NCBI RefSeq assembly: GCF_020103725.1
Contig: NZ_JAHXBG010000021.1
Coordinates: 124,001-188,000 of the forward strand
Origin: Hyalangium gracile
GTDB taxonomy: Bacteria > Myxococcota > Myxococcia > Myxococcales > Myxococcaceae
DNA: 64,000 nt
Reading direction: 5' to 3'
A program made the translations under genes and the position numbers. Positions within the stretch are counted from its first letter, which is position 1; every line of letters begins with the position of its first letter. Positions 39,572 to 51,390 of this stretch are shown here, piece by piece. The notes beneath the pieces are model-generated. The model saw only the letters and a program-made list of their open reading frames with translations, was not told the origin of the DNA and did not search any database.

Positions 39572-40351
39572 GTGTCCTACCCGTCCTCACCCTCCCGTCG
39601 AAAGGCCGTCCGCCCGAGCTCGCAGCGGGGCCAGGCCACCGTGGAGGCCGCCATCAGCCTCCCGCTGACCCTCTTCCTCTTCCTGGGCACGCTGCAGCTG
39701 TTCCTGCTGCTCCAGGCCCAGGCGCTCACCGGCTACGCCGCCTTCCGGGCCGTGCGCACCGGCAGCGTCAAGTACGGGGACTGCGAGGCGATGACGCACG
39801 CGGCCATCGCCTCGCTGCTGCCCTCCTTCGCTCGCACGGACTCGGCGGTGGCGCTGGGCACCTCCTTCCGCCTCCACCGCGAGAACCGCTTCACTCCCGC
39901 GGCGGACAGCGGGCACTCCGGCAGCATCGTCTGGATTGCCCGGGAGCGCCCGCTGGCCTCGGAGATCCGCGCGGACGAGGAGCGCAGCTTCGATGATCCG
40001 GCTCGCTACTCCAGCGTCACGGACGTCACCCGGCTCGAGGCGCGGCTCGTCTTCTGGTACCCCATGCGCGTCCCCTTCGCGAACTGGGTGCTGAGCCGGA
40101 TGTTCCTGGCCCAGCTGGGGCTGCGCGACTTCGTCGCCGTGGACCCGCTGGTGCCCGCTCACGATGCGCGCTGGGGCGCGACCAGGCCCGTCACGCTCGA
40201 GGCCTCCATCCGCGAGGAGATGCTGCGGCGCGCCGACCGCCGCCAGTACGCCTTCCCGCTCCAGGCCACCTACGCCATGCGGATGATGACGCCGCCGCGT
40301 CCGCGGTTCTTCGCCACGCAGAACTGCCCCTTCCCCTCGGAGGCGCCATGA
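39572..40351 (+). CDS. TadE-like pseudopilin protein
   Basis: 259 residues from GTG 39572; the longer in-frame start gives only an Arg-rich tail. Near the N-terminus is the TadE/TadG class signature: a short basic leader with RGQATVEAAISLPL followed by a hydrophobic helix (TLFLFLGTLQLFLLLQAQ). The Glu in VEAA is the residue conserved in prepilin-like TadE proteins. The remainder is soluble and exported, with one conserved-looking WYPMRVPFANW stretch. It is the first gene of a tight four-gene operon (next start overlaps as ATGA). Likely a minor pseudopilin of a Tad/Flp-type fibre or secretion machine at the cytoplasmic membrane. Confidence 0.75.
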   Translation: MSYPSSPSRRKAVRPSSQRGQATVEAAISLPLTLFLFLGTLQLFLLLQAQALTGYAAFRAVRTGSVKYGDCEAMTHAAIASLLPSFARTDSAVALGTSFRLHRENRFTPAADSGHSGSIVWIARERPLASEIRADEERSFDDPARYSSVTDVTRLEARLVFWYPMRVPFANWVLSRMFLAQLGLRDFVAVDPLVPAHDARWGATRPVTLEASIREEMLRRADRRQYAFPLQATYAMRMMTPPRPRFFATQNCPFPSEAP

Positions 40352-41835
40352 GCTCCCGCTCCCCTCGCGGACAGTCGCTGATCCTCATGTGCATCGCGCT
40401 GCTGTTCCTGGTGCTGATGGTGTGCCTCACCCTGTCCTTCTCCATGAAGCTGCGCGACAAGATGGAGACGCAGAACGTGGCGGACCTGGCGGCCTACAGC
40501 GGCGCGGTGGCCACCGCGCGCACGTTCAACAGCGTGGCCCTCATGCGGCGCGCGCAGACCGGCAACCTGGTGGCCATCTCCTCGGTGATGAGCCTCATCA
40601 GCTGGACGAGCATGGTGCGCGCGGACCTCAACTCCGCTCGCATGGCCGCCCACGGCTGCTCCGCCGCCGCCACCACCCTGGAGGCGCTGGACGAGAAGAA
40701 CGCGGAGATTGAGGAGCGGTGGCACGAGCTGGACGCCCGCGCCGGCGTGCAGGCCTACAACATCCAGATCCTCGGCAACTACCTGGCCTACCTGCAGGGA
40801 AAGATGTTCGAGGAGCTGCAGCAGTCCGTCTCGGGCGGCCCCGAGTCCTTCGCCGCGCGCATGACGGCCATGGCCAGTGAAAACAGCCGCTTCCCGGGCG
40901 AGCTGCACGCCGGCCCCACCCCCGTGTCCGTGGGGGAGCTGGTGCATGCGACGTCGGGCGGCAATGGCCACGCCATGGACATGGCCATGGCCTCCCGCGG
41001 GTACGGGTTCATCACCCGCCGCCAGGTGGACCCCTCCATGAACGCCCCGGGCGGAATCCTGGGAGCGCTGGGCGCGGCCGGGGCCCGCCTGCGCGTCATC
41101 GAGGGCGGCGGCAGCGCCTACTGGGGCTCGGAGCTGGGCCACGGCGGCCGAGCGGACTCCACGTGGTTCACCTTCGCGGAGGACCACGCCACCCTGGAGG
41201 TGACCTTCCCCGGCTGCGCCCCCTTCCGCGTCACGGCCACCGCCGGCGTGCGGGCCACCGACAAGGAGGATGCCTCGGACGACCACTGGTGGACCCCGGC
41301 CAGCTCGAAGCTGGGCCAGGCGGATGTAGGCATGGAGAAGCAGCACCGGCACACCCTCATGTCCTGCTGGCCGCGCCAGTTCTGCCCCAACACCTTCATT
41401 GGCGGCATGACGTACAACACCGCCGACCAGGAGGAAGCCAACCTCTGGGCCCAGCCCAAGAATTTCGCGCTGGTACAGCGCGACTACCGGGCGCGGGGAC
41501 GCAACAGCGCGCCCTGGGAGCTCGTCTTCCAGCTGCGCTTCACCCCCGACTCCAACAGCTCCTTCGACAGCCACGGCTGGAACACGGCGGATGGCACCGA
41601 CATCAGCGTGCAGTCGGCGCTGGGCACCGGGCTGGCCTACTACCACCGGCCGGGCCACTGGAACGAGCCCCCCAACCTCTGGAACCCCTTCTGGCGCGCC
41701 ACCCTCGTCTCGGCCGATGTCGATGCCGCGGGGGACCCTCGGAGAGGCGGCACGGACATTGCTGACACGGTGGGAGAGCCCGCCGCGGAAGCGCTCCGGC
41801 AGCTCACTCTCGCTGGCTACAAAGGAGTCCACTGA
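40348..41835 (+). CDS. TadG-like Flp pilus assembly protein
   Basis: 495 residues, starting within the ATGA overlap with the previous stop. The N-terminus has SPRGQSLILM and a hydrophobic helix (MCIALLFLVLMVCLTLSFSM), then KMETQNVADLAAYSGAVATAR, the DAAALAAA-like motif seen in TadG proteins after the membrane anchor. The large remainder is a periplasmic domain without a visible von Willebrand A MIDAS motif, unlike many TadG proteins. Two-residue overlap logic (TGATG) couples it to the next gene. Probably an anchored periplasmic component of a Tad-like apparatus. Confidence 0.72.
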   Translation: MSSRSPRGQSLILMCIALLFLVLMVCLTLSFSMKLRDKMETQNVADLAAYSGAVATARTFNSVALMRRAQTGNLVAISSVMSLISWTSMVRADLNSARMAAHGCSAAATTLEALDEKNAEIEERWHELDARAGVQAYNIQILGNYLAYLQGKMFEELQQSVSGGPESFAARMTAMASENSRFPGELHAGPTPVSVGELVHATSGGNGHAMDMAMASRGYGFITRRQVDPSMNAPGGILGALGAAGARLRVIEGGGSAYWGSELGHGGRADSTWFTFAEDHATLEVTFPGCAPFRVTATAGVRATDKEDASDDHWWTPASSKLGQADVGMEKQHRHTLMSCWPRQFCPNTFIGGMTYNTADQEEANLWAQPKNFALVQRDYRARGRNSAPWELVFQLRFTPDSNSSFDSHGWNTADGTDISVQSALGTGLAYYHRPGHWNEPPNLWNPFWRATLVSADVDAAGDPRRGGTDIADTVGEPAAEALRQLTLAGYKGVH

Positions 41836-42899
41836 TGCGCGCCGCCCCCCACGCCTCCCGAGGACAAGCCCTGGTGGAGCTGAGCCTGGGACTGCTCACC
41901 TTCACCGTCGTGGCGGTGTACGGCATCCACTTCGCCGAGGTGGGCTACCTCTCGCTCAAGGTGCCCGAGGCGGCCGTCTCTCCGCTGTGGGACAGCACCG
42001 CGCTGCGCGTGCACCGCATGGAGCCCCGGAAGGAGCAGATTGGTGACTTCCGCTCCTTCGAGAACATCGCCCCCGAGGTGCAGGCCCACGCCCGCGCGCG
42101 CTACGGAGACTTCGATGGGCGCAGCTCCACCCTGAACGGCCGCCCCGAGCTCACCCAGGTCTTCACGCGGATGAACGGGCTGAAGCTGGACTGCACCCGG
42201 GATGATCAGGTGGCGTTCGACGTGCCCCGCAGCCGCCGCCCGGCGCTGATGATGCCCCAGGACGGAGACTTCGGCGTTCCCCAGCCCGGGCAGGACCTGG
42301 GCGAGGAGACGGACAGCCCGCTCGACGGCATCTACGAGAACGTGGGCGGCATCAGCTGCTCGGCGCAGGCGGACCTCCAGGGGCTGCCGTCGCTGCCCGT
42401 CCTCGTGCTGGACAAGGCGCGCGCCCTCATCCATGGCGAGGCGCCGGCGCAGCACGAGACGATGAAGGCCTGCGCGACGGGCCAGGCCGTGGGCGGCGTG
42501 TGCTCCGGGCGCTATGGAATCCTCCTGGGGGACTTCGGCTTCGCCGACGCGGACCTGGGCGACCACTGCCCCCTGCAGGCCGAGCGCCCCAATGAGCCCT
42601 GCCGCGAGAACCCCACCTTCTATTACGCGGCGATGAAGGTGTTCTCCAACAACGGGCGCGCCGCGGGCCGCGCGGCCTCCGACTTCGCCGAGGCCTTCGC
42701 CGGCTACAGCCCCATCGACGAGAACGGCTTCTTCATGAGCTACCGCGGCGAGGAGGACGACTACATCGAGAACGACACGCCGCGCGGCGAGGAGCTGGAC
42801 GAGGTGGACCGCCCCCGCAACACCGGCGGCCCGGACCACAAGCCGACCGCCGTGCGCCGTGCGTCCAACCTGTGCTTCCTGGGGATGCGGGAATGCTGA
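41835..42899 (+). CDS. TadE-like exported protein
   Basis: 354 residues. AAAGGAG seven bases upstream supports ATG 41835, which overlaps the previous stop as TGATG. The N-terminus repeats the TadE-type plan: SRGQALVELSLGLLTFTVVAVYGI, with Glu after the helix start, then a long soluble domain with about eight Cys, for example the CSAQ, CATG, CSGRYG and CRENP stretches, that could form disulfides. Third pseudopilin-like gene of the operon. Its large Cys-containing domain is not recognised. Confidence 0.65.
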   Translation: MRAAPHASRGQALVELSLGLLTFTVVAVYGIHFAEVGYLSLKVPEAAVSPLWDSTALRVHRMEPRKEQIGDFRSFENIAPEVQAHARARYGDFDGRSSTLNGRPELTQVFTRMNGLKLDCTRDDQVAFDVPRSRRPALMMPQDGDFGVPQPGQDLGEETDSPLDGIYENVGGISCSAQADLQGLPSLPVLVLDKARALIHGEAPAQHETMKACATGQAVGGVCSGRYGILLGDFGFADADLGDHCPLQAERPNEPCRENPTFYYAAMKVFSNNGRAAGRAASDFAEAFAGYSPIDENGFFMSYRGEEDDYIENDTPRGEELDEVDRPRNTGGPDHKPTAVRRASNLCFLGMREC

Positions 42900-49546: not shown

Positions 49547-51010
49547 GTGTCCCTCAAGAGCGTCTCCTACAAGCCCCCGGTGCGGCCGTCTGCTCCTCCC
49601 TCCGCTCCGGCTGCACCGGCGGCGAGCGCGCCCCCGACGAGCGCCGCGTCTCCCGCGAGCACCTTCACGGCCACGCGCTTCGAGCCGCCCGCCCGTCGCC
49701 CCATGTCGCCGGACGGCACGTCGAGCACCCTGCGAAACGAGGTGCTCGGGGATGGGAAGGCCAACTGCCTGGAGAAGGCCAGCAACCTGGCGCGTCCAAA
49801 CGACACGGTGGTGCTCTTCCGGGACGCGAATGATCCCGTCGGCCACGCCGTGGTGCAGCGCCCCGATGGCAGCGTGGTGGATCCGAACAATCCGAGCATC
49901 ACCTACCCCGATCTCGGCAGCTGGCAGGCCTCCCACCCGGAGTACAACTCGCCCGCGAAGGTGCCGGCCTCGGCCCTGAAGCAGGTGCTGTCGCTGCCTC
50001 CCGGGCCGAAGCGCGATGCGGCCATCTCCGCGCTCGGTCTGTCGGGCGTGGCCAACCGCCAGGTCGCCGACGGCCCGCTGCCCTCGGGGGTGCGGGTGGA
50101 CGCCAGTGACGGCCTCAGGCTCCGCGAGGGCGCGGGCACGAACACCAAGGAGCAGCGGATGCTGACGAACGGCACCGAGCTCACCGTGCTGGGCAGCCAT
50201 GAGACCCAAACCGACTGGCTCTTCGTGCAGACCAGCGATGGGCTCACGGGCTACGTGCACCAGGGCTACGTCCAGCCCACGGACGGGCAGAGCTACCCGG
50301 GCATCGGCGATCTGGGCGACTCGCGCCAGGCCCAGGGCGGCGGCACGGTGGGCGGCTCGACGCCTCCTCCCTCCGGCCCGGCGGGGGGCTTCCAGTCGGG
50401 CTCGGTGGGCGTGTCTCCCAGCGTCACGCTGGGCACCGTCACCGAGGGGCGCACGCAGGAGAACCTCGATGCGCGTACGCCGCACTTCTCCCAGGGAGAC
50501 CCGCTCTACTCCGCCAGCACCATCCCAGCCTGGGGTGGAACCGCCAGCATCAAGGACGCGGGCTGCCTCATCACCTGCAAGGCCATGGCGATCAGCGCCT
50601 ACCAGAATGGCGATGGGCAGCCGATGGTGAGCCCGGGAGACCTGGCCGACACCTCCAACAGCGCCGCGGTGACGGTGGGTGACCGCACCTTCGTCCAGCA
50701 CAGCCCCGCGTTCGGTCAGGGGGCCATCGATCGCGCGCTCGAGCAGGGGCTGCCGGTGGCCGTGCGCCTGGACGGGCCGTACGGCGAGCACTGGGTGCTC
50801 ATCACCGGCAAGAACACCGACGGTACCTACACGGCGCGTGATCCGGGCTTCCGCGCGAACGCGGGCACCAACGACAGCTGCCAGGACATCTCCCTCACCT
50901 GGAACGGGACGACGCTCACGGGCCAGGCGCCTTTCGGCAAGGGCGCCTACACGGCGAACACCTCGGTGAACATGCACATCTACGCGCCCGAGGGGGCGTA
51001 TACGCCCTGA
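49547..51010 (+). CDS. Pro/Ala-rich protein with SH3 and C39-like cysteine peptidase domains
   Basis: 487 residues. No signal peptide: the first ~55 residues are Pro/Ala/Ser-rich (KPPVRPSAPPSAPAAPAA). Residues ~65-120 hold a papain-like or transglutaminase-like Cys/His arrangement (KANCLEKA, VGHAVVQRPDGSVVDPN). An SH3-type domain sits at ~180-245 (DGLRLREGAGTN, TGYVHQGYVQP). The last ~170 residues match the C39-like peptidase plan: Cys in DAGCLITCKAMAIS, His in GEHWVLITGK and Asp in YTARDPGF. SH3 plus cysteine peptidase suggests action on peptidoglycan or extracellular protein. The disordered N-terminus without Sec signal is like that of proteins exported by non-Sec routes. Convergent with the type III needle-like gene across a strong hairpin. 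Confidence 0.75.
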   Translation: MSLKSVSYKPPVRPSAPPSAPAAPAASAPPTSAASPASTFTATRFEPPARRPMSPDGTSSTLRNEVLGDGKANCLEKASNLARPNDTVVLFRDANDPVGHAVVQRPDGSVVDPNNPSITYPDLGSWQASHPEYNSPAKVPASALKQVLSLPPGPKRDAAISALGLSGVANRQVADGPLPSGVRVDASDGLRLREGAGTNTKEQRMLTNGTELTVLGSHETQTDWLFVQTSDGLTGYVHQGYVQPTDGQSYPGIGDLGDSRQAQGGGTVGGSTPPPSGPAGGFQSGSVGVSPSVTLGTVTEGRTQENLDARTPHFSQGDPLYSASTIPAWGGTASIKDAGCLITCKAMAISAYQNGDGQPMVSPGDLADTSNSAAVTVGDRTFVQHSPAFGQGAIDRALEQGLPVAVRLDGPYGEHWVLITGKNTDGTYTARDPGFRANAGTNDSCQDISLTWNGTTLTGQAPFGKGAYTANTSVNMHIYAPEGAYTP

Positions 51011-51073: not shown

Positions 51074-51289
51074 TCAACGCATGTTGTTGATGATGGCCAT
51101 GCTCATGTCGTTGAGCTTCTTCATGATGTTGCTGATGAGGCTGACGGCCTGCTGCTCCTTGTCGAGCTGCATCTGAGCCGCCATCATTCTCTGCTGGTCC
51201 GGGGGAAGCCCGGCGAGAACGTCGAGCTGAGACTGCGACAGTCCCGGGGTGCCAGCGGCGGCCTTGAACGCGGAATCAATGGTAGACAT
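51074..51289 (-). CDS. Small helical protein resembling type III secretion needle subunits
   Basis: 71 residues. AGGAGG six bases before ATG 51289 makes the start certain. The protein is a helix, a Pro/Asp turn (GLPPDQQ) and a long helix ending MSMAIINNMR. Needle proteins (PrgI, YscF, MxiH) have the same size range, helix-turn-helix hairpin with a P-x-D/P turn, and C-terminal ends such as AIIQNFR. From memory, the last 44 residues align with PrgI without gaps at about 14 identities, including P and D of the turn and AII-N-R of the tail. No secretin, ATPase or other type III gene lies in the window. No WXG motif, so ESX substrates fit less well. The convergent Pro-rich peptidase could be cargo; this is speculation. 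Confidence 0.5.
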   Translation of the reverse strand: MSTIDSAFKAAAGTPGLSQSQLDVLAGLPPDQQRMMAAQMQLDKEQQAVSLISNIMKKLNDMSMAIINNMR

Positions 51290-51390
51290 GTGGAGCCTCC
51301 TGCCGCGACAGGGTGGATTCCCTGTCGCGTTGCAGAGAGGTACCGGAGCACCAGCGAAACCTCTGTACCGCTGGGGAAGTAGGCTCGCCG

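Follow-up and report, generated by a model that had tools for sequence, protein, structure and literature searches.

Genes whose products resemble the type III secretion needle subunit SctF by profile comparison exist in both type III gene clusters of the myxobacterium Hyalangium gracile, i.e. in clusters of a kind that has been called needleless. This is the strongest result of our analysis of a small open reading frame (ORF, Table 1) within a stretch of 64,000 nucleotides of this genome (contig NZ_JAHXBG010000021.1, positions 124,001 to 188,000), in the following referred to as the window. The window ORF is one orphan paralogue of a myxobacterial SctF-like family, which is a distant relative of known needles with significant similarity at the profile level.

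The survey comprised 59 genomes including that of H. gracile (G000); L-numbers denote loci drawn from these genomes, and gene starts were taken from a simple purpose-made gene finder. With the window protein as sole query, 73 matches were obtained in 24 of the 59 genomes. A profile built from 18 members detected the family in 42 genomes, G000 among them. The top match of this profile in the PDB was a 43-residue needle fragment (7y6c_F) with an expect value (E) of 7.4e-6, and a later profile of 26 members gave 7.2e-6. The fragment, whose depositors' label mentions a needle co-chaperone, itself matches the needle family PF09392 at E 8.9e-17. As a control, the 18 sequences were reversed; a profile made from them reached no better than E 2.5 in the PDB, and the best Pfam match of the reversed proteins was an unrelated family (E 0.0031).

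The family is linked to the type III export apparatus. Matches were counted as near if they lay at most 30 kb from a match to the SctV family; the SctV-family matches also include flagella and contig fragments. Thereby, 49 of the 73 matches of the window protein were near, 9 shared a contig with an SctV-family match but were farther away, and 15 were on contigs without such a match; in genomes of three contigs or fewer, 21 of 30 were near. The family profile yielded 150 listed matches, to which the following counts apply: 96 were near, 12 far on the same contig and 42 on contigs without SctV, and 36 of 47 were near when the count was confined to genomes with profile matches and no more than three contigs (nine genomes). 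We calculate a random expectation of 1-2%. SctV-family matches numbered 95 and were found in 45 of the 59 genomes; 55 of them had a listed profile match within 30 kb and 40 had none. Among the matches listed, 40 genomes hold both SctV and the family, one match lies in a genome lacking SctV (G030) and five SctV genomes show none.

The two SctV genes found in H. gracile belong to contigs C35 and C8. Contig C21, which includes the window, holds neither of them (part of the window genes were scanned for type III families), and the window copy has no linkage to the export apparatus. A short family copy lies on C35 (1259-1480), 2.1 kb ahead of the sctV start (3582). The upstream half of this main cluster is contig C51 (L119), where a long SctF-like gene is followed by an ORF resembling a tetratricopeptide repeat (TPR) protein by eye, an ORF of 131 amino acids, a sigma factor gene, sctI and sctJ, and then by genes for a FliG_C protein, SctL, SctN, a FliK-like protein, SctR, SctS and SctU. 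SctJ, L, N, R, S and U scored above the cut-off, SctI below it (PF17001, E 3.5e-4), and the FliK-like length-control protein just under it (28.7 versus 29.8 bits). The presence of an export apparatus elsewhere in the genome, one of the checks proposed for the window ORF, was thus confirmed. Main-type clusters of relatives contain SctQ and TPR proteins as well (SctQ was found by Pfam in the cluster of genome G006 only). A FliG_C-type domain is present at L119:5635-7524 (E 2e-6), although Abby and Rocha (PMC3459982) list FliG as absent from these systems.

Contig C51 ends with a promoter-like element and the first codons of a probable further short copy; an array of short genes was probably broken by the assembly at this point. 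Short genes occupy the same cluster position in relatives, in up to five copies, and in four arrays compared the tandem copies were 96.4-100% identical at DNA level. As SctI has its own candidate gene in the main cluster, the family does not merely represent the inner rod. The second cluster (C8, L034) shows the order needle-like gene, sctI-like gene, sctJ, with E values of 2.4e-6 (family profile), 0.0018 (PF17001, below cut-off) and 8.1e-16, respectively. The sequence-only reading of the window had considered that a part of the myxobacterial system might have been missed, and the SctF-like genes in its clusters support the idea of an overlooked needle. That the free-standing window gene is itself the missing part is not supported: the cluster paralogues fit better, and if a part of the myxobacterial type III secretion system T3SS* is missing, the family is more likely to supply it than this gene.

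Many of the cluster copies are preceded by the element GAAACT-N15-CGATAAT. When spacers of 12-22 were allowed, the spacer was exactly 15 in all 30 distinct matches listed from the loci. A search of ten whole genomes for exact matches to GAAACT-N15-CGATAA gave 45 sites in nine of them, and the backward-read control pattern gave none. These sites are located in front of needle-family ORFs (28, one cut by a contig end), in front of the gene of a DUF1521 protein (3) and elsewhere (14); 12 of the latter end 5-68 bases before a same-strand ORF start, another lies 368 bases away and the last overlaps an ORF start. A weight matrix was derived from 41 exact sites; within 150 bases upstream, it scored at least 15 for 36 of the 68 genes of the needle family and for 21 of the 920 others. 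This comparison is partly circular, owing to the origin of the matrix and to 12 high-scoring genes of the latter group that had been selected for carrying the element; the independent figure is the count of exact patterns together with the backward control. In a genome of another genus (G013, L052:8346-11308), the array genes encode proteins of about 188 amino acids with a long N-terminal extension, and each is preceded by the same element.

The consensus of sigma-28 is TAAA-N15-GCCGATAA, and flagellar late genes under control of sigma-28 (FliA) include tandem flagellin genes. By analogy, the FliA/WhiG-like sigma factor encoded in the main cluster may read the GAAACT-N15-CGATAAT element. Sigma-70 regions 2 and 4 were found in this protein, which scored 109.7 bits with the FliA_WhiG model TIGR02479, under the cut-off of 189.6. 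Among 13 places matching this model, a gene on contig C7 scores 109.6 and, consequently, the cluster sigma factor is not the sole candidate. Its gene adjoins sctI in G000 (L112, identical with L119) and in the loci of seven other genomes (83-94% identity). In the other six loci searched, L034, L042, L047, L049, L052 and L066, we found neither the sigma gene nor a main-type sctI, save for a partial sctI match in L034. No match to FlgM was obtained in the 131-residue ORF preceding the sigma gene in three genomes; a diverged FlgM could escape such a search.

We read the element-bearing genes as a late regulon of the flagellar type. One of its members would be the gene of a DUF1521 (MIIA-type) protein among the needle-like arrays. 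The L045 protein, the sole homologue scanned, matches PF07481 at E 1.3e-12 (48.5 bits, cut-off 23.6). All six homologues contain the tetrapeptide GDPH, and the element or a variant of it is found upstream of all six genes (matrix scores 21-42). GDPH is the autocleavage site of a type III-secreted MIIA protein (PMC6506597). The DUF1521 protein is a candidate autocleaving T3SS* substrate.

Off-cluster targets of the element comprise 12 ORFs (L120-L133), ten of which (all except L121 and L128) were run against Pfam. Four matched PG_binding_1 (L127), LysM together with a VgrG3-like domain (L129), DcrB (L132) and C39_2 (L133), respectively; the other six, L124 among them, had no Pfam match. Many of these proteins start Pro/Ser/Ala-rich and have no obvious signal peptide by eye. 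They may be T3SS* effectors. The genes downstream of the L120 and L130 targets are similar to each other by eye.

The window ORF itself was found exactly where the sequence-only reading had placed it, with an ATG start, 71 codons and a GGAGG just 5' of the start. The AII-N-R tail noted there is present as AIINNMR. A single-sequence AlphaFold2 model (mean predicted local distance difference test score 77.5, predicted template modelling score (pTM) 0.46) has short helices at residues 4-10 and 19-26 and, after a GLPP turn, a long one at 30-70. With 71 amino acids the protein compares to the needle hairpin of about 70-85, helices 19-26 and 30-70 forming the predicted hairpin in this single-sequence model with a pTM of 0.46. 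PF09392 was the top Pfam match (E 2.8e-4, residues 19-70 on profile positions 20-71). In phmmer searches, residues 20-71 were aligned with positions 29-80 or 32-83 of single PrgI chains, at equal lengths (E 0.26-0.51).

Several observations weigh against a needle assignment, some of them for the whole family and some for the window copy. The window protein stays below the cut-off of PF09392 (21.5 versus 29.4 bits) and of the NCBIfam needle model TIGR02105 (E 0.0052, 17.2 versus 41.7 bits). PF09392 was matched at E<=1 by 4 of 18 family members and not by the remaining 14, and the NCBIfam needle model matches just 3 of 26. The long SctF-like gene of the main cluster (L119:1824-2405) gave no Pfam match at E<=0.01, the needle-like gene of the second cluster just HrpF at E 0.083, and both were assigned by the family profile. 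Fold searches of the single-sequence model with Foldseek and VIA-align gave no useful information, and no needle was among their matches. Searches of the window and of the region ahead of the window ORF (matrix score -18.5) did not detect the GAAACT element, and the N terminus of the window copy changes fast. Furthermore, Abby and Rocha (2012) described the myxobacterial systems as lacking SctF, which their searches should have found (PMC3459982). A PF09392 search of the whole G000 genome yielded no match, but neither did the controls, so that it is uninformative. As both needle-family cut-offs were missed, we call the window protein SctF-like and do not file it under PF09392. The needle-like identity claimed in the sequence-only reading is sustained by the profiles, PF09392 being the best Pfam match and the family profile reaching about E 7e-6 against the PDB, and not by the curated thresholds.

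It might be argued that the resemblance is a chance likeness of short helical hairpins, given the low single-sequence scores and the many ubiquitin chains outranking PrgI chains in the phmmer list for the window protein. We regard this as very improbable in view of the profile match with its clean reversed control and of the many genomes in which the family is linked to type III clusters.

The counterpart of the window copy in G006 (L038) differs at 29 of 41 N-terminal residues and at 3 of 30 C-terminal residues. For the whole ORF, non-synonymous (dN) and synonymous (dS) divergence were 0.35 and 0.44, respectively; in the C-terminal part, 6 of 9 base changes affect third positions. About 90 bases of the leader with its inverted repeat are largely conserved before the G006 gene. 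The conserved C-terminal helix suggests that the window copy may be functional. The element score of the counterpart is -16.6, and other orphans fall on either side. Lacking the element, the window copy would be either under other control or a spare copy. It could also be a decaying duplicate without a role, whatever the function of the family: the missing element, the SctV genes on other contigs, the N-terminal half differing so widely from its closest relative and the dN and dS values of the ORF would all agree with this. We consider decay rather doubtful, however, because the ORF is intact, the C-terminal part is conserved with changes mainly at third positions, and leader and inverted repeat persist in G006.

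Table 1. Positions of the features described (plain numbers refer to the window, the others to loci or contigs of the survey).
Feature	Position	Strand	Basis
SctF-like (type III needle-like) orphan paralogue, 71 aa	51074..51289	-	ORF, profile searches, G006 comparison
Codons 30-71, for the tail and the long helix predicted at the C terminus (residues 30-70); family conservation is highest here	51077..51202	-	model, alignment
Perfect 10-bp inverted repeat of the 5' leader, close ahead of the ribosome-binding site	arms 51304-51313 and 51320-51329, 6-base loop	-	sequence, alignment, folding
Convergent neighbour with SH3_3 and weak C39-like domain; residues of about 1-188 match proteins of other sizes elsewhere	49547..51010	+	Pfam
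Long SctF-like gene, 193 aa	L119:1824-2405		family profile alone
DUF1521 (MIIA-type) protein among needle-like arrays	L045:7978-9096; homologues in L040, L042, L043, L044, L046		
FliA/WhiG-like sigma gene, open frame overlapping the sctI start	G000:C51:3407-4042 (L119); L073:8801-9505		

What is seen here is needle relatedness, linkage to export genes, near-identical tandem copies, the shared element and, within the cluster, a conserved sigma gene of FliA/WhiG-like type. In our opinion the family members of the main cluster are probably exported filament (needle) subunits, and the window ORF is an orphan paralogue of them; export, polymerisation, reading of the element by the sigma factor and continued use of the window copy are inferences. 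After the base is built, the small cytoplasmic family proteins would pass the SctRSTUV gate and stack on the SctI/SctJ base by means of the conserved helix at their C terminus. We propose a short needle or a periplasmic filament as the product because no type III secretin was recognised: the best score with the SctC model TIGR02516 was 132.9 bits (cut-off 238.45), and none of 14 control genomes exceeded the cut-off either, leaving this search without a positive control. The arrays would supply subunits in bulk, together with late substrates, and orphans such as the window copy may be spare or specialised subunits. In a wider and more tentative version, which we hold at somewhat less than an even chance, T3SS* is not needleless and possesses a multi-copy SctF-like filament; the sigma factor and the GAAACT-N15-CGATAAT promoter would switch on the arrays, the DUF1521 protein and scattered prey-lysing peptidoglycan effectors, with the orphans remaining outside the regulon as spare or specialised copies.

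Alternatively, the short array proteins could be secreted substrates (early or late cargo, caps or translocator-like proteins) that have a needle-like C-terminal export helix without building a filament, the true needle being encoded by the long gene (about 190 amino acids) only. In favour of this, the array genes share their promoter-like element with candidate effectors, a long needle-like gene is located at a distance of a few genes before sctI and sctJ, and in certain family members the N terminus is extended by 100-300 residues or more. But size and predicted hairpin of the array proteins are needle-like, and near-identical tandem copies fit a subunit that is required in bulk; we therefore think this explanation unlikely.

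The convergent neighbour of the window ORF had been described as a Pro-rich, signal-less cysteine-peptidase-like protein. Its N terminus is indeed Pro/Ala-rich and without an obvious signal peptide by eye, and the peptidase part is less certain: SH3_3 was matched at E 9.5e-12, but C39_2 just below threshold (E 0.011). The protein matches something in 15 of the 59 genomes, with strong matches mostly within the first 190 or so residues, and the proteins matching this N terminus have open frames of 478-1176 amino acids. The N-terminal module thus seems to occur with other C termini. A module of about 180 residues with conserved Cys and His (by eye) is present in L135-L139, L149, L150 and the window protein at 49547-51010, and looks like a polymorphic family. 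At the loci with homologues of the neighbour the element never reached array strength (best matrix score 18.7). A conserved pair of peptidase and needle gene was not found: the G006 counterpart of the window ORF is flanked by other genes, and the gene lists of 19 other loci with peptidase-like homologues contain no needle-like ORF by eye.

Another orphan needle-like gene, on contig C7 of G000 (L036:9820-13514), ends a run of three Tad-like genes, one with a PF07811 match above the cut-off and two with matches below it. The arrangement recalls the reported link between Kil pilus tip and T3SS*. In the window, a TadE-like gene (PF07811, E 7.8e-6) and two further genes are located at 39572-42899, 8-12 kb from the needle-like ORF; the one of these two that was run against Pfam had no match. 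A link between orphan needle-like genes and Tad genes was rejected, the Pfam matches being weak to moderate and ten other orphan loci (6 kb around) having no BLAST match to these Tad genes.

T3SS* is required for prey lysis by Myxococcus xanthus. Abby and Rocha inferred from the absence of SctF that the earliest-branching injectisomes lost the needle and perhaps cannot secrete (PMC3459982), and later texts describe the T3SS* of M. xanthus as lacking a needle (Kaimer 2023, PMC10433427; Herrou 2025, PMC12075869; a 2024 review, PMC10849154), Kil (Tad) pilus tips replacing it in a published model (PMC12075869). Among the open-licence PubMed Central articles listed by our searches, titles and abstract beginnings revealed neither a needle-like protein nor a sigma regulon for T3SS*. 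If the two myxobacterial type III clusters both carry SctF-like genes, the premise that SctF is absent would no longer hold. Together with the shared element these genes would also provide a first list of candidate substrates, some of which have domains suiting a lytic role.

Compared with the SctF needles of PF09392 (PrgI, MxiH, YscF, SsaG), the family is alike in length, in the predicted order of helix, turn and long helix, in C-terminal similarity, in its linkage to export genes and in the order needle-like gene, sctI, sctJ of the second cluster. In contrast to them, it remains below the curated cut-offs, occurs with several members per genome as near-identical arrays and orphans, is accompanied by no secretin above cut-off, and many of its cluster copies share an element with other genes. 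Flagellar late genes under sigma-28 (FliA) resemble the arrays in their near-identical filament-type genes, in the element, which resembles the sigma-28 consensus, and in the FliA/WhiG-like sigma gene of the cluster; here, however, the -35 region is GAAA, the sigma factor is under the FliA cut-off, the C7 gene scores equally and FlgM was not matched. With the autocleaving DUF1521/MIIA proteins NopE1 and VIC_001052 the DUF1521 protein shares the PF07481 domain and GDPH, but it is encoded in a myxobacterial T3SS*-type cluster beside needle-like arrays. Finally, Wang (2023) names two clusters in M. xanthus, T3SS* (MXAN_2434-2464) and T3SS(2) (MXAN_5643-5654) (PMC10196010). G000 likewise has two SctV loci, and judged from the gene content, including that of the main cluster, its clusters would correspond to those of M. 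xanthus. Whereas these systems were published without needle homologues, both clusters of H. gracile hold SctF-like genes according to the family profile.
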